22,806 nucleotides of DNA, taken from IMG/VR virus record IMGVR_UViG_3300026518_000062, positions 1 through 22,806 of that record; one strand, written 5' to 3'. The stretch is from a virus. The notes under the pieces were generated by a model that saw only the letters and a program-made list of their open reading frames with translations, ran no database searches and had not been told where the DNA came from. Both the position numbers and the translations under genes were made by a program. Shown piece after piece: positions 3,482-22,270 of this stretch (its first letter is position 1; each line of letters starts with the position of its first letter).

Positions 3482-4911
3482 TAGACAACCTCCTCGAATT
3501 CAAATGATATTGTTTGCGTATCATCAAGTTTATTCTGTTTTGTGCGAGTCTGCATTGACATTCTTTTAAGCCTCCCGATAAGCTGAGTTGCTTGAAACAC
3601 AGTATTGCTATCTGTGTCTATGTTCGACTTGTTGTCGCTACCGTCTATTGCGATAAGCTCCTGAGCAAATCTTTTATTTATTCGAAGAACCTTGTCGTAA
3701 TCTGTTAATTGAATATCAAAAGAACCTTTGTGTTGCACAACTCTCTGCCCTTTTATGTGGTCTATGTACCCGCTCACTTCGCTGACTTTATTTTTGTCAA
3801 AATTCTTTATATCATTTGAAAACTCTAAGTTTGTAGCACCAACATCTATCCAATTTCCAAACCTAATAAAACCTATCTGTGCTTTTGGAGCAGTAAGCGT
3901 TGGTGCGATGTCTATCCAAGCCTCATCCCATTGATTACTAATGACAGTTTGCGGTATGTAGTAAATGATTGTAGATGGCTCAGGAGTTTTGTTACTGATT
4001 ATAAACGCTGCGTCATATTGAATTGTATTTGCGTAGAGGCTAATAACTTCGCTATGGATAACACTTCCATTGCTCATAAATCTAATCTGAACATTGTCCC
4101 CAACAACATTCCCAAGCAATATGCTGCTAACGTCATAAACAGTTCTATCAGGAGGATTTAGTTTCCAAGTTTGTGGCGTAGATGTTGTAACAGCAGAGTA
4201 TTGCTTATCATCAAACGGCAAATCTGCCGCAAGTGGCTTGTAATAATATAGCTCATGATATGTATTTGTGTAGTAAGTATGTGGAAGCTGCTCCCAAATA
4301 CCATCGTCAAGTTGCGTTCCGACAATTGTTGTGGACTTTTCACCTTTAACCATAGCAACTTTGCCATTATCCATAACGAATATAAAACCATTGCTTACTA
4401 TTGGTTTTGGGTGCAGCGTAAAGTTGTACTGATTTAAAATAGTATTATCGGACACCCTTGTCACAGTCACAGTTACATCTTTTGTCCCTATTGCGTCTAT
4501 TGTAGTTGCGTGAAACTGATAGTTTCTGTCATTAGGACATGGCGTATTGCTTGTGTTTGCATCTATTGTTATTGAGAAAAAATCGCTCCCATCATAATAT
4601 TCAAACCTATTCATCGTCACAGGGTATGTAAACGCAGCAAAAGCATCTTCCCAGCACCCTCTTCCCACGTTGTCATATTTCTTTTTATATCCAAGCCCGT
4701 TTATTACAACAGGATTATCCTGAAAATAAAACAGATAGTCTTGATAATCTGGATACTGCACATCTTCTGATTTATTATAAACTGAGTATATGCCATCGCT
4801 TTTCTTTACTAAATCCCCATCAGAGTACGTTGCATTTGGGTCATATAATGGCTCTGTATCAACAACATCTGTGCTTAGTAGAGTTGTTGTTTGTGGTATG
4901 TGAAATATCAT
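3481..4911 (-). CDS. Large tail-tip / minor tail protein (476 aa)
   Basis: This is the first gene after the tape measure, overlapping it by ATGA. Residues 22-46 (LYDPNATYSDGDLVKKSDGIYSVY) form a short carbohydrate-binding-like strand pattern. The middle is beta-rich (TKDVTVTVTRVS, NVQIRFMSNGSVIHSEVIS). The C-terminal 130 residues contain IGFIRFGNWIDVGATNLEFSND followed by DFDI-like strands. This recalls a 'G.i.lG...dlG.t.....i.dys' segment that I associate with minor tail proteins downstream of the tape measure in some marine and soil siphophages. No Dit, Tal, NlpC/P60 or GpJ domain is recognisable. It is probably part of the tail tip or hub. The exact role is open. Confidence 0.65.
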   Translation of the reverse strand: MIFHIPQTTTLLSTDVVDTEPLYDPNATYSDGDLVKKSDGIYSVYNKSEDVQYPDYQDYLFYFQDNPVVINGLGYKKKYDNVGRGCWEDAFAAFTYPVTMNRFEYYDGSDFFSITIDANTSNTPCPNDRNYQFHATTIDAIGTKDVTVTVTRVSDNTILNQYNFTLHPKPIVSNGFIFVMDNGKVAMVKGEKSTTIVGTQLDDGIWEQLPHTYYTNTYHELYYYKPLAADLPFDDKQYSAVTTSTPQTWKLNPPDRTVYDVSSILLGNVVGDNVQIRFMSNGSVIHSEVISLYANTIQYDAAFIISNKTPEPSTIIYYIPQTVISNQWDEAWIDIAPTLTAPKAQIGFIRFGNWIDVGATNLEFSNDIKNFDKNKVSEVSGYIDHIKGQRVVQHKGSFDIQLTDYDKVLRINKRFAQELIAIDGSDNKSNIDTDSNTVFQATQLIGRLKRMSMQTRTKQNKLDDTQTISFEFEEVV

Positions 4912-7900
4912 GCGCCTATCCTTTCTAATCTATCCACTACTTCATCAAGTTTCTCATTTGATGTTTGTATTGCGTTTACTATATCTGTGCGTGTACTATC
5001 CTCGACCTGTGCGTCGAGCGTAGCCACATAGCGATTAAACGCAGCTCTAGCTTGTTCGTCTGTTGTCGCTGTTGCTTGTGACTGTTGCAATGCTAAAAGG
5101 GCTTTCTCTGATGCACTCATAGTTGATGGAATGACATTGTTTGCTATTGAGTTTGCATAAGCTGTTTTTTGAAGCATAGTAAGTGGACTGTAATTTCCAA
5201 GCCAAGCATCGTTAAGTGCTTTTACATTATCACCCATAGACTGAGCGACAAGGTCTATGCTGTCTTTATAGTTTAGTGCAGCTTCAACATTCTTGCCATA
5301 CTGTTGGCTTAACTCTTTTTCTAGTTTAATCTTCGCAGGTAAATCTTTTTCATTCTCTGACTGGAGTAGATCTATTTGCGCTTTTGTGAGCTTCATACTG
5401 TCAATGGTCGTAATGACATCTTTTAAGTATGACTGTAGCGACTGTCCGCCTCTTAGTTTATTAACATCAGCTTGTGCTTGAGCCAGTGCTTTGTTTTTGT
5501 AGTAGTTTCCAAATAGCTTATCGTAGTCGTCTTTGAAGCTTTTACCAGCATCGAAAATCGTCTGATATGAGTTTATGACCGACATTGCAAAATCATGTGT
5601 AGTTTTTTCAGCTTGATTTATGATGTCTTTGTACTCTTGATTTGTTACACCAAATGCAGAAAGGTCTTTGTTGTCTTTAAGCTTCATCAAAAATTCAATG
5701 TATTTTGAAGCGTTTGTTTTGGTTGATTCGTTGATGTTTAACTTACCGTAAGCATCTCCATATCTATAATCTGAATGTTTTGTTTTACTAGCCCAGTCAT
5801 GTTTACTTAGTTTTTCGTAATATGTTGCATTAACATAGTCACTATATTTTTTAAATAGTGCATTTGTTGCAGAGGCTGTTCCAGTGGAGTCACCTGATAA
5901 TGTAAGTTTTGCATCCCAGTGGTTATACCAATTCCCACCATGGGCTTTAAATGTGCTGGACGTACCCATTAACCCAAGTGCTTTCAGTGTATCTACTACT
6001 GATTGTCTTTTGTACGTCTCTTGCGCTCTTTTGAGTTCATTTGACACGGCAGAGCCGCCATATCCGCTAATAGCCTGAAGCAGTTCGATTTGTCTATCAA
6101 GTCTGTCTGTAATAGGTTTGACATTATGTTCGTAGTCTTTTGCTTGTTGGTTGTACTTGCCTTGATACTCTTTGAGTAATTCTGCTGCGCTTTTTGAGTG
6201 AGAGTTTTTGTTTAAGCCACTTATTAAATTTTCAACGACTGATATGCCGACACCTGCAGCTATTCCATACAGCCCGCCCATAGACATTAAACCACCCGCT
6301 GCCTGTAACGTGCTGCCTCCTGCAACAATGTTTGACGTTGAAGCCTGTATCATCGAAGAGCCGATTGAACTTCCAAGTCCTTTTAATGCTCCCTCGACAT
6401 CTCCACTTTGGATAGCATCCACAATGCTGTTTGAGATGGAGGAGTTTAGCGTGTCTCCCCATTTTTGGAAAGTAGCTTCTGCTTTTTTACTATTTTTTAG
6501 AGAATCCCATCCTGCTTCAAATGATTCTGATTCAAACTCTTTTGATGTTTTGATATACTCTGCGTCTTCTTTTAGCTTCTTTTCTTGTCTTTTTTTGGCA
6601 AATTTAAGTCCAGCCTCTATGAGCCCTGCTTCTAGCTTATGCTTCTCATCTATGTTTTTTCTGTATTTTTCTAGTTCTTTATCATTCAGCTTCGCAAGTT
6701 CAGAGTAGTACCATTTATCTACAAGCAGTAGAGTTTCTTTGTCACCTTTCGCTTTTTCGTCAAACTGTTTTGCTTTTTCAATTAGCGCATCGTATGGGTT
6801 TTGACCTGCTATTTCAAGTTGAAGTTTTTTTCTAAGAGTGAGAATTTTTTTATCGGCTTCTGCAGCGTCCTTAACTCTTTTTACTTTAAGCTGTTCCGAC
6901 TTAATCATTTCATTATCATAAAGCCTATTTTGTGCTTTTTCATATAACTCATTAATTCTATTAAGTGCCTCTTTATTCCCAGCATATTTTTTAGTTAGAC
7001 TTTCGTAAGCTTTTTCTAGGTCTGCGAATGGAGTATCAGATTTTATGGTTATTTTTGAGAAAGGGTGCTTTATTTCTTCTATGGCTGCGAAAGAGTCGCT
7101 TATCTTTTTGGCAGCTTTTGCGCCATGATCTCCAAGTTTGTCGTACTCTATTATGGATTTCCTATTCTTATCAATTATCTCATTAGTAGTGCTTAAAAAC
7201 TTTTGTCTCTCATTGCTGTTCATTGACACATAACTTGTAATTTGCCCGAGTTCTATAAAAGCATTTTCAAGCACTACCCCAGTGTTATGTGCTAAGTCAG
7301 CGAATACTGAAAACATTGCTATAGATGTCGATGTTTTATCGTTCACACCATCAAGACCATCACTAATGATATTTAAAGTATCCGATACTGGAGTTATCCC
7401 ACGCACAGCCTCTGCACCAAGAACCTTGAAAAGAACCATTGACTTCTCATAAGTATCTGTTACTCCGTCCACAATCTCTTTACTGTGAATTTTTAAATAC
7501 TCAGTAAGTTCTAATATTTCAGCCTTTGTATCGTCGAATATTGGCTTACTCATCTCTTTTTGAAGTGTTTGCCATTGACCTTTCATGTTTGCAACTGCTT
7601 TGTCAAAAGTCATTATTTTTTCAAGATTTGCGAATGGCTCTAATGCCTGATTTAAAAGATTTGTTAATCCGTTGGTTTGCTTTTTTGCTTCTTTTATAGC
7701 AGCGTTCGCAGCAGTAGGGCTCCCAAAAAGGATAAGCGCAAGCTTTGAGTCACGAGACACGTCACCACTCATCAGAGAGCGAATCTCCTCATTTATCATA
7801 TCCATTGGCATCCCTACCGCACCGCCAAGATTTGACATTCTTTTCGCTATATCTATCATATTGTGGCTAATCTCATTGAAAGATACGCCTAGTGCATCAT

Positions 7901-8759
7901 TTGCACTTAAAGCGTGACCTATTCCTTGTTGGTAAAATCCTACCATCTGATCGAATGTTGCTACTGTGTCATAAGAAGCTGTTTTTAGCTCATCCATTGT
8001 TTTAGTAGTCATTTTTTGAGCTATCTGTAGCTTTTCCGCAGAATCTACTTGTCTGCCAGTTGTAGTTATGTCATCCATCTTTGACGCAACAAGAGCAGAT
8101 AGTCCAAGTGACATACTCTCATATTGCCTTTGTAATTCTATTCCTTGTCCGAAAGTCTCGCCCCATGCTGTCTTTACGGAGTAGTATGCAACCGCTAATG
8201 ACTCTAGCTGCCGAATATGTCTAATTTCGCTTGTACTTAAACTTCTTCTTACTGCATCTTCTTTTCTTAGAGATGATGATAAAGACTTGCTTGACGTGGA
8301 TAGTTTTTTATTTTCACCTATCAGTTTTTTTGTGTTTGCTATTTTTTCAGCGTAATATGATTTTTGTTGCTTTATTGCCGATAGTTCAGATTTATATGCA
8401 GATATGTTTCGTTTTATATTTTTATATTTTTTAAGTTCACTATTTTCAAGTTCTGTGTTTAGTTTTTTTTGCGCAGAGATTTGTTTATTCACTCTCGCAA
8501 GTTCCGCAGACTCTTCTTTGGTAAGCTTTCCATTTTTTATCTGAGCAGACAAAAGCTCTTTCTTTCTATCAATGAATTTGTTTAATGTTTTGTCATTTGC
8601 TTTGATTTGATTTTCGTACTGTTCGTACTGCTTTGAAAGTTCTTTTGTGTCTTTTGCCATAGATGCATATACTGCACCTGACATCTCCTCTAGGTTTTTT
8701 ATCTGCGTTTCAAAGTCTGTTATATCTGCTTTGATTGCATAGACTGTTGAATTTGCCAT
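4908..8759 (-). CDS. H: Tail tape measure protein
   Basis: At 1283 aa this is by far the longest gene. It sits directly after the G/GT frameshift genes, as H does in lambda. Residues 1-180 are charged heptads (predicted coiled coil). Residues about 190-420 look like the tape-measure core: LGLSALVASKM, TFDQMVGFYQQGIGHALSANDALGV, IDIAKRMSNLGGAVG. More coiled coil follows. A Gly/Ala-rich hydrophobic stretch lies at about 795-848 (AAGGLMSMGGLYGIAAGVGI), of the kind that may enter the host membrane. Inside the growing tail it sets tube length and is threaded by the G and GT chaperones. By the lambda ratio of roughly 0.15 nm per residue, the tail would be about 190-200 nm long. A consensus promoter lies just upstream. 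Confidence 0.93.
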   Translation of the reverse strand: MANSTVYAIKADITDFETQIKNLEEMSGAVYASMAKDTKELSKQYEQYENQIKANDKTLNKFIDRKKELLSAQIKNGKLTKEESAELARVNKQISAQKKLNTELENSELKKYKNIKRNISAYKSELSAIKQQKSYYAEKIANTKKLIGENKKLSTSSKSLSSSLRKEDAVRRSLSTSEIRHIRQLESLAVAYYSVKTAWGETFGQGIELQRQYESMSLGLSALVASKMDDITTTGRQVDSAEKLQIAQKMTTKTMDELKTASYDTVATFDQMVGFYQQGIGHALSANDALGVSFNEISHNMIDIAKRMSNLGGAVGMPMDMINEEIRSLMSGDVSRDSKLALILFGSPTAANAAIKEAKKQTNGLTNLLNQALEPFANLEKIMTFDKAVANMKGQWQTLQKEMSKPIFDDTKAEILELTEYLKIHSKEIVDGVTDTYEKSMVLFKVLGAEAVRGITPVSDTLNIISDGLDGVNDKTSTSIAMFSVFADLAHNTGVVLENAFIELGQITSYVSMNSNERQKFLSTTNEIIDKNRKSIIEYDKLGDHGAKAAKKISDSFAAIEEIKHPFSKITIKSDTPFADLEKAYESLTKKYAGNKEALNRINELYEKAQNRLYDNEMIKSEQLKVKRVKDAAEADKKILTLRKKLQLEIAGQNPYDALIEKAKQFDEKAKGDKETLLLVDKWYYSELAKLNDKELEKYRKNIDEKHKLEAGLIEAGLKFAKKRQEKKLKEDAEYIKTSKEFESESFEAGWDSLKNSKKAEATFQKWGDTLNSSISNSIVDAIQSGDVEGALKGLGSSIGSSMIQASTSNIVAGGSTLQAAGGLMSMGGLYGIAAGVGISVVENLISGLNKNSHSKSAAELLKEYQGKYNQQAKDYEHNVKPITDRLDRQIELLQAISGYGGSAVSNELKRAQETYKRQSVVDTLKALGLMGTSSTFKAHGGNWYNHWDAKLTLSGDSTGTASATNALFKKYSDYVNATYYEKLSKHDWASKTKHSDYRYGDAYGKLNINESTKTNASKYIEFLMKLKDNKDLSAFGVTNQEYKDIINQAEKTTHDFAMSVINSYQTIFDAGKSFKDDYDKLFGNYYKNKALAQAQADVNKLRGGQSLQSYLKDVITTIDSMKLTKAQIDLLQSENEKDLPAKIKLEKELSQQYGKNVEAALNYKDSIDLVAQSMGDNVKALNDAWLGNYSPLTMLQKTAYANSIANNVIPSTMSASEKALLALQQSQATATTDEQARAAFNRYVATLDAQVEDSTRTDIVNAIQTSNEKLDEVVDRLERIGA

Positions 8760-8795
8760 TTTCCGTACCTTTTAGGAGTGCAGTATATAAACCCT

Positions 8796-8835
8796 GCTTG
8801 TTTCATATTATATAATATAAATTTAATTAAGTCAA
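8796..8835 (-). promoter_or_regulatory. Sigma70-like promoter upstream of the tape measure
   Basis: On the minus strand TTGACT (8830-8835) is followed by a 17-base spacer and a perfect TATAAT (8807-8812), close to the sigma70 consensus. A start near 8800 would leave a leader of about 40 bases before the tape measure ATG. The -10 lies inside the 14-bp palindrome ATATTATATAATAT (8805-8818). Twenty of 23 bases at 8796-8818 recur upstream of gene W at 17144-17166. The TGA stop of the GT extension lies within the -35 hexamer. The region is very AT-rich, so activity is inferred. Confidence 0.65.
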
Positions 8836-12514: not shown

Positions 12515-12799
12515 CTATTTGCCTTTTTTTAAGGTGGCAATCTCTTTTGTAAGTTTTTCAACATCAGCCGTAAGTTTTTCATTTTCAGAAACGAGTTTTT
12601 CATTTTCAGAAACGAGTTTTTCATTTTCAGCCAGAAGTTCTTTTGCATCTTTAGACACCTTTAAATTTACTTCTTTTGCTAACCCCTCTTCAATAAGAGA
12701 CTCAGCCACTTTTTTAGAGATACATCCTTTTCCATTCCCTACTTCTACGATTTCCCCATAAGAGAAACCGCCTGTGATACAGTCAAGTTGAATTTTCAT
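12515..12799 (-). CDS. Coiled-coil protein at the lambda FI position (94 aa)
   Basis: The first 44 residues (GEIVEVG...ISKKVAESLIEEGLAKEV) look like a small beta-plus-helix module, similar in outline to the C-terminal part of lambda FI. Residues about 50-92 form a heptad coiled coil with the exact unit KLVSENE repeated. The repeat is visible in the DNA as a 21-bp tandem repeat. It follows the major capsid gene with GTAAGGAG before its ATG. In lambda FI helps terminase find the prohead; this protein has the same place but a different build, so only the position is shared with confidence. The C-terminal coil suggests oligomerisation. Confidence 0.75.
   Translation of the reverse strand: MKIQLDCITGGFSYGEIVEVGNGKGCISKKVAESLIEEGLAKEVNLKVSKDAKELLAENEKLVSENEKLVSENEKLTADVEKLTKEIATLKKGK
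12573..12630. repeat. 21-bp tandem repeat (about 2.8 copies) inside the coiled-coil gene
   Basis: Two identical 21-bp units (12573-12593 and 12594-12614) and 16 bases of a third follow each other. Each unit encodes one heptad, KLVSENE on the minus strand. Identity at the DNA level suggests recent duplication and possible length variation between strains. Confidence 0.9.
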
Positions 12800-15445: not shown

Positions 15446-16878
15446 TATTTACCCTCCTGTGTAGGTATTTCAATGCCTGCTTTCGCATACATCTCTTTTC
15501 TCAATTTTAGTTTCTCTATCTCGTCCTCTATCTCTTCTCGATAAACGTCTTCGATGTTACGACCACGCTTAGAGACAATCTCTCTTTTTGAGTGTGTACC
15601 ATTATCAATATTTTTTGCATTTGCCGCAGCAGTTTTCATTGGTTCTATATCAATTTCGCTTACTCTCATAAAGTCGAATTTATGGTATTTTGATGGATTT
15701 GTGAAATAACCGTCTATGTTTATATGCCCTGCTGTAACGCCAACCTTGACTACGTTTTTAAGTATAGGCAGCATTACTTTTTTACTAAGATTATCAAACT
15801 CAATGCTCCAATTAATTTGAGCAAGTGCGAGCATAGCTTTTATTGCAGAGTAATTTGATTTTGATGGATCTTGGTACACTATTTGAGAACTTAACCCCTG
15901 TGATGAAGACACTTTTAGCTGAGAGTTGTTTGTCAATGCTGTATAAATCGAGTCGGTGTTGTTTGAGTCTAATACTATTTCATCATCTCTTGGAATTGGA
16001 GTAAGCCCCTGCGGTTTTACAGCTTGCTCACTAATCCTTTTCATTAGCTTTGCGATATTGTCGTTTTTAGCTTTTGAGTCTTGTGTTTGTCGGGCTATCT
16101 TCATAATATCATCATACAATGAAGTTTTCCAATATCTGCCAGCTTTGCTTTTGTCTATTGCCGACTTCAGCTCTGCATCGCTGTATTGCTCAAGATTGTC
16201 AATAGACGGCAATATTGTTGATAGCTTAGAAACCGCTGTATATTGAGAAAGGCTTATCCATACAGGAGAATAATATATCAACTCTGACTTATCAACAAGT
16301 CTCGATATGCTTCTAGTTTGGTCGGTAAATAAATAAATGCCCGTTATTCTGCCGTACTTGTCTTTTTTTATACCGTTTAGAACATTTGTCTTTTTAAGGT
16401 TTTTTGAGGTGTCTATCATCCCAACTTCTATAAGTTCAAACCGATAAGGTATATCCCACTCTGAATTAAAGTGGTGTCTCACTAAGAAACCTCCGTCTTT
16501 ATCGGTAAATTCCACCATTGAACGCCAAGCCTCGTCAAGATGCCACCTTCCAGTTACTTCACAGTTCTCATCACTTGAAAATTCTTTAATATAGTCTTCT
16601 ATTTGAGTATTCAATTCAGGATTATCTTTAATTCTCGATTGAATATTCACTTTTGTACCGATTATGCCTGCTTTGTTTGCATTAATTATGGACGGGATGT
16701 CTGTGCCGTTTGCTCCGTGCCATCTGATAACTTCTCTTACATTTTTTGCAAAAGAAATATCTATCTTTTCTATGCTTTCGTCAGTAACAGGCTTGTTTTT
16801 TACTGTTTCAAGTTCGTTTACCGCTACGTATCCGAATTTTCCATATAGCCAATTTTGGATATTTGTTAAAAATGTCAT
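15445..16878 (-). CDS. B: Portal protein (lambda B type)
   Basis: The 477-aa protein matches the lambda-type portal family (Phage_portal_2). NVREVIRWHGANGTDIPSI lies at about 45-63, then NANKAGIIGTKVNIQSRI, the 'R...rn.......i..n.vG.g....s' signature. GGFLVRHHF follows near 130, and SRLVDKSELIYYSPVW around 210. The C-terminal region is helical and charged (DEIEKLKLRKEMYAKAG). Twelve copies would form the ring through which DNA enters. The ATG overlaps the W stop as ATGA. Length is a little under the 533 aa of lambda B. Confidence 0.9.
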   Translation of the reverse strand: MTFLTNIQNWLYGKFGYVAVNELETVKNKPVTDESIEKIDISFAKNVREVIRWHGANGTDIPSIINANKAGIIGTKVNIQSRIKDNPELNTQIEDYIKEFSSDENCEVTGRWHLDEAWRSMVEFTDKDGGFLVRHHFNSEWDIPYRFELIEVGMIDTSKNLKKTNVLNGIKKDKYGRITGIYLFTDQTRSISRLVDKSELIYYSPVWISLSQYTAVSKLSTILPSIDNLEQYSDAELKSAIDKSKAGRYWKTSLYDDIMKIARQTQDSKAKNDNIAKLMKRISEQAVKPQGLTPIPRDDEIVLDSNNTDSIYTALTNNSQLKVSSSQGLSSQIVYQDPSKSNYSAIKAMLALAQINWSIEFDNLSKKVMLPILKNVVKVGVTAGHINIDGYFTNPSKYHKFDFMRVSEIDIEPMKTAAANAKNIDNGTHSKREIVSKRGRNIEDVYREEIEDEIEKLKLRKEMYAKAGIEIPTQEGK

Positions 16879-17075
16879 AATGAGCTATGCTCCCAAGCTG
16901 TTATTTTTGCTTCAATTGCATCTATTTGTGTTTGGAGCTTATCTATTTGGAGGGTTTGAGTATGAAAATTTCCTTTTCCGAATGAGTGTACTTTGTTTTC
17001 CACTATTTCATCTAAAGTAGCTTGATATTTGTCTCGTCTGGTCTTTAGTTGTGAAATTCTCTCTGCTTTTGTCAA
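16875..17075 (-). CDS. W: Head-tail joining protein W
   Basis: The 66-aa protein has the W build: an N-terminal helix (AERISQLKTRRDKYQATL), a short beta hairpin (FGKGNFHTQTLQ) and a C-terminal helix (IDKLQTQIDAIEAKITAW). Lambda W is 68 aa and fills the portal channel so that FII can attach. It lies between terminase and portal as in lambda. The start given is TTG; its ribosome site is poor. AAGAGG lies 40 bases further up in the same open frame but has no ATG, GTG or TTG at the right distance, so the real N-terminus is not certain. Confidence 0.75.
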   Translation of the reverse strand: MTKAERISQLKTRRDKYQATLDEIVENKVHSFGKGNFHTQTLQIDKLQTQIDAIEAKITAWEHSSL

Positions 17076-17121
17076 GGGTAAGTCCGTCTTTTTGTAGAGT
17101 GTTTTAATCCTCTTTTTTGAA

Positions 17122-17137
17122 TGTCGCCGTCACGACA
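17122..17137 (-). other. Small GC-rich hairpin in the W leader
   Basis: TGTCG / CGACA with a 6-base loop forms a short GC-rich stem in an otherwise AT-rich leader between the promoter and gene W. There is no U-run, so it is not a terminator. It may shape the 5' end of the W-portal mRNA. Confidence 0.35.
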
Positions 17138-17143
17138 CATATT

Positions 17144-17183
17144 GCCTACTTCATATTATATAATATTAATATATAAAAAGCAA
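17144..17183 (-). promoter_or_regulatory. Promoter upstream of gene W, twin of the tape measure promoter
   Basis: On the minus strand TTGCTT (17178-17183), a 17-base spacer and perfect TATAAT (17155-17160) lie in the 144-base gap after the large terminase gene. The 14-bp palindrome ATATTATATAATAT (17153-17166) and the bases after it match the tape measure promoter at 20 of 23 positions, with three transitions. The -35 is weak. A start near 17148 would give a leader of about 70 bases to the TTG of W. Confidence 0.55.
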
Positions 17184-17219
17184 GTTATTCGCATAACTAT
17201 TGCAAAATCACATTCGTAT

Positions 17220-21519: not shown

Positions 21520-21677
21520 TTTTCGCCCCTCTTAATTTTGTTATATAGTCCGATTCCTATATAATTCAATTTTTCATCATATAACTTTATTTGATTGTAA
21601 TCAAATATGTCAACTTTTTCAATGTCAATTAATCCCCACGCCGTGCCGCTATAATTTAATTTATAATATTTTTTCAT
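21516..21677 (-). CDS. Unknown 53-aa early protein
   Basis: The frame begins MKKYYKLNYSGTAWGLIDIE and ends NKIKRGEK. A good ribosome site, AAGAGGTGG, lies before its ATG, and its stop overlaps the start of the 84-aa gene as ATGA. It is rich in Tyr, Lys and Ile and looks like a small beta protein without a membrane segment. I cannot assign a function. The coupling to the next gene and the ribosome site make it likely to be translated. Confidence 0.55.
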   Translation of the reverse strand: MKKYYKLNYSGTAWGLIDIEKVDIFDYNQIKLYDEKLNYIGIGLYNKIKRGEK

Positions 21678-21751: not shown

Positions 21752-22270
21752 TTAATCGCATCTGCATATATCTCCGTTATACTCTGTATAATCAAACGCT
21801 AAGTCTCTAGATATCGCCTTAATGTCTACATAGCTCCAGTTTGTTTTAAATACTTGCTGCAACGCCTCACCAAAAAGCCCCTCTTCTATAAACTCCTCAG
21901 CTAATGAGTCTATGTTTGTGTCTTCGTATATCTCGCAGTCATCAAGTTTTGACGCTGCATCCTCTAGTTTGTAACCTTGACAATTTATCAAGAAGTTTAT
22001 TTTTTTAATCTCCGTTTCATTAAGTCCGCTGATTATTTCATACACTTCATATGCTTCATGTAATGATTCATCGCCTTTAATTGTGCCTGTTTCATCACCC
22101 TCAACATCAGCAACAAATAATTCTAAATCATCACTATTTAAGCCCTCTTCTTTTTTTAGCTCTTTAAAGTGTTTTTCTATTTCTTCAATCTCGACATCTT
22201 CAAGATCAAACCATTCGCACGCTAAAATTCCGTTGTTATATAATTCCCAATCTTCAACTGCTACTCTCAT
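21752..22270 (-). CDS. ardA: Antirestriction protein ArdA
   Basis: The 172-aa protein has the ArdA opening: a strand, then YNNGILACEW (11-20), which matches the 'YN.G...G.W.dl' motif. Later come LAEEFIEEGLF and WSYVDIKAISRDLAFDY, matching the closing 'Y.d....arDl' motif. About 47 of 172 residues are Asp or Glu and basic residues are few, as expected for a protein that mimics the shape and charge of B-form DNA. ArdA binds type I restriction-modification enzymes and blocks them when phage or plasmid DNA enters. AAGGAT lies before the ATG. Early expression is expected. Confidence 0.92.
   Translation of the reverse strand: MRVAVEDWELYNNGILACEWFDLEDVEIEEIEKHFKELKKEEGLNSDDLELFVADVEGDETGTIKGDESLHEAYEVYEIISGLNETEIKKINFLINCQGYKLEDAASKLDDCEIYEDTNIDSLAEEFIEEGLFGEALQQVFKTNWSYVDIKAISRDLAFDYTEYNGDICRCD

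Follow-up and report, generated by a model that had tools for sequence, protein, structure and literature searches.

Two sigma-70-type promoters probably account for a repeated element before the W-like and tape-measure genes of a low-GC phage

A 23-bp element that occurs twice among the late genes of a phage genome fragment very probably supplies the -10 regions of two minus-strand promoters of sigma-70 type, which would be read by the host RNA polymerase. The fragment analysed, hereafter the window, is the entire 22.8-kb virus record (IMG/VR record IMGVR_UViG_3300026518_000062; 22,806 nucleotides). Its late genes lie on the minus strand in a lambda-like order: terS, terL, a W-like 66-aa gene, portal, S49 protease, decoration protein, capsid, tail genes, tail tube and tape-measure protein (TMP). 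One copy of the element is located between terL and the W-like gene, in a gap of 144 bp, and the other precedes TMP, in a gap of 72 bp. The W-like gene (16875-17075, minus strand) occupies the lambda-like position between terL and portal and aligns with same-position genes in related phages; a family match above the cut-off was not found for it. The TMP gene (4908-8759, minus strand) encodes a protein with 41% identity to annotated tape-measure proteins of phage OP947165 and Nitratiruptor phage NrS-4, and the family is present in Nitratiruptor and Campylobacter phages. The window also encodes an ArdA-type antirestriction protein (21752-22270, minus strand; Pfam PF07275, E 1.2e-10).

The copies at 8796-8818 (GCTTGTTTCATATTATATAATAT) and 17144-17166 (GCCTACTTCATATTATATAATAT) agree in 20 of their 23 bases, with transitions at all three mismatches, and each contains the perfect 14-bp palindrome ATATTATATAATAT around TATAAT (8805-8818 and 17153-17166). 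These features, described in the initial annotation, were reproduced here. That annotation missed that the genes are read on the minus strand, where the TTG of a -35 hexamer is placed exactly 17 bp upstream of TATAAT. The exact core common to both copies comprises 17 bases (8802-8818 and 17150-17166) and is the longest dispersed exact repeat within the window. The only longer exact repeat is tandem and intragenic: an in-frame 21-bp repeat at about 12573-12651, within the 94-aa gene that follows the capsid gene; its translation is the repeat KLVSENE/KLTADVE.

The significance of the repeat was assessed by simulation. Because the DNA is 64% A+T, repeated 17-mers are not especially rare: one arises in 3-18% of whole-window Markov simulations (order 1-4), and the repeat by itself is therefore not decisive. 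The exact 17-mer is also present in 104 other viral contigs of IMG/VR, which are unrelated to the window phage; as the loci examined among them encode no structural-gene relative, the 17-mer was rejected as a mark of the phage family. Both figures could be reconciled with a functionless, chance convergence of A+T-rich leaders. Shuffling restricted to the gaps argues against this. When seven non-coding gaps alone were shuffled with dinucleotides kept, at least 17 bases were common between gaps in 2 of 3000 sets (~0.07%), and when the two gaps carrying the element were shuffled alone, 17 bases in common were reached in none of 5000.

Read in the direction of the genes, the W copy is AACTTGCTTTTTATATATTAATATTATATAATATGAAGTAGGC, or TTGCTT-17-TATAAT, and the TMP copy is AAATTGACTTAATTAAATTTATATTATATAATATGAAACAAGC, or TTGACT-17-TATAAT. 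The TMP-side -10 hexamer (8807-8812, minus strand) matches the consensus at 6/6 positions and ranks first of 45,600 positions by promoter score. Its -35 hexamer TTGACT (8830-8835, minus strand), which overlaps the stop codon of a 71-aa gene, agrees with TTGACA at 5/6 positions (shuffle p 0.009 for the TTG spacing). No other site in the window reaches 11/12 at a 17-bp spacer, and this combination tops the consensus scan. The W-side -10 hexamer (17155-17160, minus strand) is likewise 6/6 and ranks 13 of the 45,600 positions; the -35-like hexamer TTGCTT (17178-17183, minus strand) is weaker, with a 3/6 match (TTG spacing, p 0.04). The -35 comparison allowed spacers of 16-18 bp, and both sites have 17 bp. 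By its parts, the pair thus appears to be a known kind of element, the TMP site carrying both hexamers and the W site a -10 with a weak -35. The extended -10, with TG one base before TATAAT, is absent from the two window sites, where TTATATAAT is found. A weak terminator-like hairpin after terL (GCAATAGTTATGCGAATAACTTGC followed by TTTTT; 17175-17203, minus strand), part of a -9.3 kcal/mol fold (z -1.8), overlaps the W-side -35.

TATAAT occurs at only two of the 20 late-gene junctions, those before W and TMP. For the window's own A+T-rich leaders taken singly, the -10 alone gave shuffle p values of 0.23-0.35. An A+T-rich, -10-centred element repeated before structural genes might also be read by a phage-specific late sigma factor or polymerase, in the manner of T4-type late transcription. 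T4 late promoters have the consensus TATAAATA and lack a -35. The window sites instead have TATAATATG with a -35-like hexamer, that is, the host consensus, and no sigma-like gene was seen among the window proteins scanned, which represent part of the open reading frames of a fragment. A phage-encoded specificity is thus extremely unlikely.

The same two leaders were then compared in related phages. Relatives were obtained by alignment-based scans (L111, L112/L118, L113, L114, L115, L116, L117, L119, L122, L125 and L129), and the annotated phage OP947165 (L006) was identified by protein search. Single-protein scans with TerL and capsid returned no relatives, although the alignment-based scans did; none were found in the bacterial genome collection or among plasmids. 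An alignment of TMP N-terminal sequences proved too diverse to serve as a query. The closest relative is L111 (TerL 72%). A -10 hexamer of at least 5/6 was present in 12 of 12 readable W leaders and 9 of 9 readable TMP leaders, the window included; L128, having no readable TMP start, was left out of the TMP set. The hexamer is mostly 25-39 bp before the start codon, often as TGATATAAT, TGGTATAAT or TGATACAAT, and the extended form TGnTATAAT occurs in several relatives (e.g. L006, L112, L114, L122 and L129). Each leader was shuffled with dinucleotides kept, and the combined p over 19 leaders was ~2e-9, a value which overstates independence because the records share ancestry. The more distant NrS-4 and CJIE4 phages have no matching -10 in the TMP leader. 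In OP947165, TGnTATAAT is found at three further junctions; these are therefore general promoters rather than a signal confined to W and TMP.

The recurrence of the -10 at both places in related phages, the -35 spacing at both window sites and the lack of TATAAT at the other 18 late junctions make functionless convergence of the leaders very unlikely. Since similar promoters stand at both positions in the relatives, the twin element probably has a function, as an element of a known kind. The proposal in the initial annotation that the repeat belongs to a promoter family is thus supported, and the search of related phages at the same places did not show the element to be absent.

The alternative in that proposal, a binding site for one regulator, did not receive similar support in this phage. 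A dimeric phage regulator bound to the palindrome over both -10 boxes could coordinate head and tail expression. In agreement with such an operator, the 14-bp dyad is kept at all three sites in the window phage and L111, the L111 copy (TTAATATTATATAATAT) being located in a W leader that otherwise aligns poorly. The W and TMP sites also resemble each other somewhat more within one genome than between genomes (the observed sum was reached in 62 of 5040 permutations, p ~0.012), the window being the main driver of this result. Against it, the remaining relatives keep the -10 without the dyad, half of the dyad is dictated by TATAAT itself, and no further copy within one mismatch exists elsewhere in the window. 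As the palindrome is common only to the closest relative, the conserved feature is the promoter and not a dyad operator, and an operator role is unlikely.

The shared stretch could alternatively act in the leader RNA, as part of an element through which translation of W and TMP is controlled. The window TMP leader and the L111 W leader have GCWG-GGTTKAWATA-CWGC-ACT in common, with a similar purine-rich ribosome site, and the hairpin shows a paired change, GCAG/CTGC in the former and GCTG/CAGC in the latter. The folding energies are however ordinary (z -0.5 and -1.0), the comparison involves two or three sequences, and the repeated core would scarcely be transcribed because it extends upstream from the presumed start site. 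Control through such an RNA is accordingly quite unlikely. The predicted leader RNAs (window 8760-8803 and 17076-17150, minus strand; L111 3362-3422) share a small hairpin, after which come CACT and a ribosome site that is rich in purines and contains ACGGA. A candidate 22-codon leader ORF (ATGTGTCGTGACGGC...) was noted at 17070-17138 (minus strand); its TGA overlaps the TTG start of the W-like gene, an arrangement that would possibly allow translational coupling.

With the two sites taken as sigma-70-type promoters, transcription from the W promoter would begin ~75 bp before the W-like gene and proceed through W, portal, protease and capsid and onwards. From the TMP promoter it would begin ~45 bp before the tape-measure gene and cover TMP and the tail genes after it. 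The two promoters would in this way split a long morphogenesis operon into units by restarting transcription at the junctions. Late timing would be expected from the genes served. The junctions of presumed restart carry, in relatives, terminator-like hairpins on the TMP side or inserted genes on the W side. In L113, L114, L115 and L125, the TMP promoter is separated from the upstream gene by hairpins stronger than those of shuffled sequences. The terL-W junction has taken up extra genes in L116 (3267-4181; a DUF723 gene on the opposite strand) and in L122 (2057-8991) and L125 (1499-7234), where the inserts span several kb and include a DNA methylase, an HNH endonuclease and DUF1064 alongside unknown genes. 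These hairpins and inserts support the idea of a transcription-unit boundary at both places. One TMP leader and the W leader of a different phage contain the identical sequence TACATTTTATGATATAATA (-10 positions L114 12552 and L122 9747), a sign that promoter pieces either converge or are moved from one position to the other.

With this assignment, concrete boundaries of transcription units would become available for low-GC phages of a little-studied group, possibly one infecting Campylobacterota. The promoter positions persist while the surrounding proteins diverge to ~35% identity.

In three relatives, a further element accompanies the -10 hexamers. The inverted box TTGAY-N4-RTCAA, of FNR/CRP type, is found 10 times in the record behind L122, 5 times in that of L125 and 4 times in that of L115 (19 in total), while the reversed control pattern occurs 1, 0 and 0 times and the shuffle expectation is 0.14-0.19 per locus. 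For 13 of the 19 boxes a -10 is found at exactly 22 bp, which places the box centre near -41.5. This is the class II activator position of FNR and CRP. The boxes (L122 1997, 6364, 8988 and 13955; L125 1480, 3091, 5374, 10957 and 18204; L115 2502; with further sites in their records) precede TMP (at 18-19 bp), inserted genes and the L125 protease gene, and are also found where terL ends. They likely represent a host-controlled promoter set. No Crp-type protein above the cut-off is encoded in the three records, and the regulator would therefore be the host's. The part of the literature covered yielded no FNR-controlled phage promoter set and no Campylobacterota FNR box. A class II box is absent from the window twin sites; the window has one exact box, at 21591.

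These patterns can be drawn together in a model that we hold with about even confidence. Virion genes would be run as separately promoted modules, W/head and TMP/tail. In one sub-lineage, comprising the records behind L122, L125 and L115, promoters of this set, among them the TMP promoter of two records, would have been wired to a host regulator of FNR/CRP type, thereby tying expression to the respiratory or redox state of the host; the window phage would represent the form without this wiring. If bound, the boxes in these three relatives would be phage promoters that read a host metabolic signal.

Among known systems, the CtrA case, in which a host regulator acts on phage promoters (PMC9437464), is comparable to what is suggested for L122, L125 and L115, where FNR/CRP-type boxes precede phage -10 hexamers. 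The regulator family is different, and the window twin sites are without such boxes. The mycobacteriophages of cluster O (PMC4351075) likewise have several host-type promoters inside long phage operons and short intergenic dyad repeats, but their dyad is GC-rich and present in >30 copies, whereas that of the window has two copies and is centred on the -10. Campylobacterota RpoD promoters are described as TGxTATAAT with no clear -35 (PMC3656092, PMC3847290), the consensus reported for Campylobacter being TGxTATAAT (PMC3656092) or gnTAnaAT (PMC3847290). The relatives' -10 is often TGnTATAAT or gnTAnaAT with A/T-rich tracts upstream; the window sites, in contrast, have no TG and carry a -35-like hexamer, and this consensus may not be that of the window's host. 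OP947165 was assigned to Thiohalocapsa by CRISPR spacers (PMC10370329) despite the occurrence of the TMP family in Nitratiruptor and Campylobacter phages. The bacterial sigma-70 (RpoD) promoter, TTGACA-17-TATAAT, differs in that the W-side -35 agrees at just 3/6 positions and the window starts are predicted from sequence. The window sites share with it TATAAT in both copies, a -35 or (at W) -35-like hexamer at exactly 17 bp and a location before a gene in the direction of that gene.
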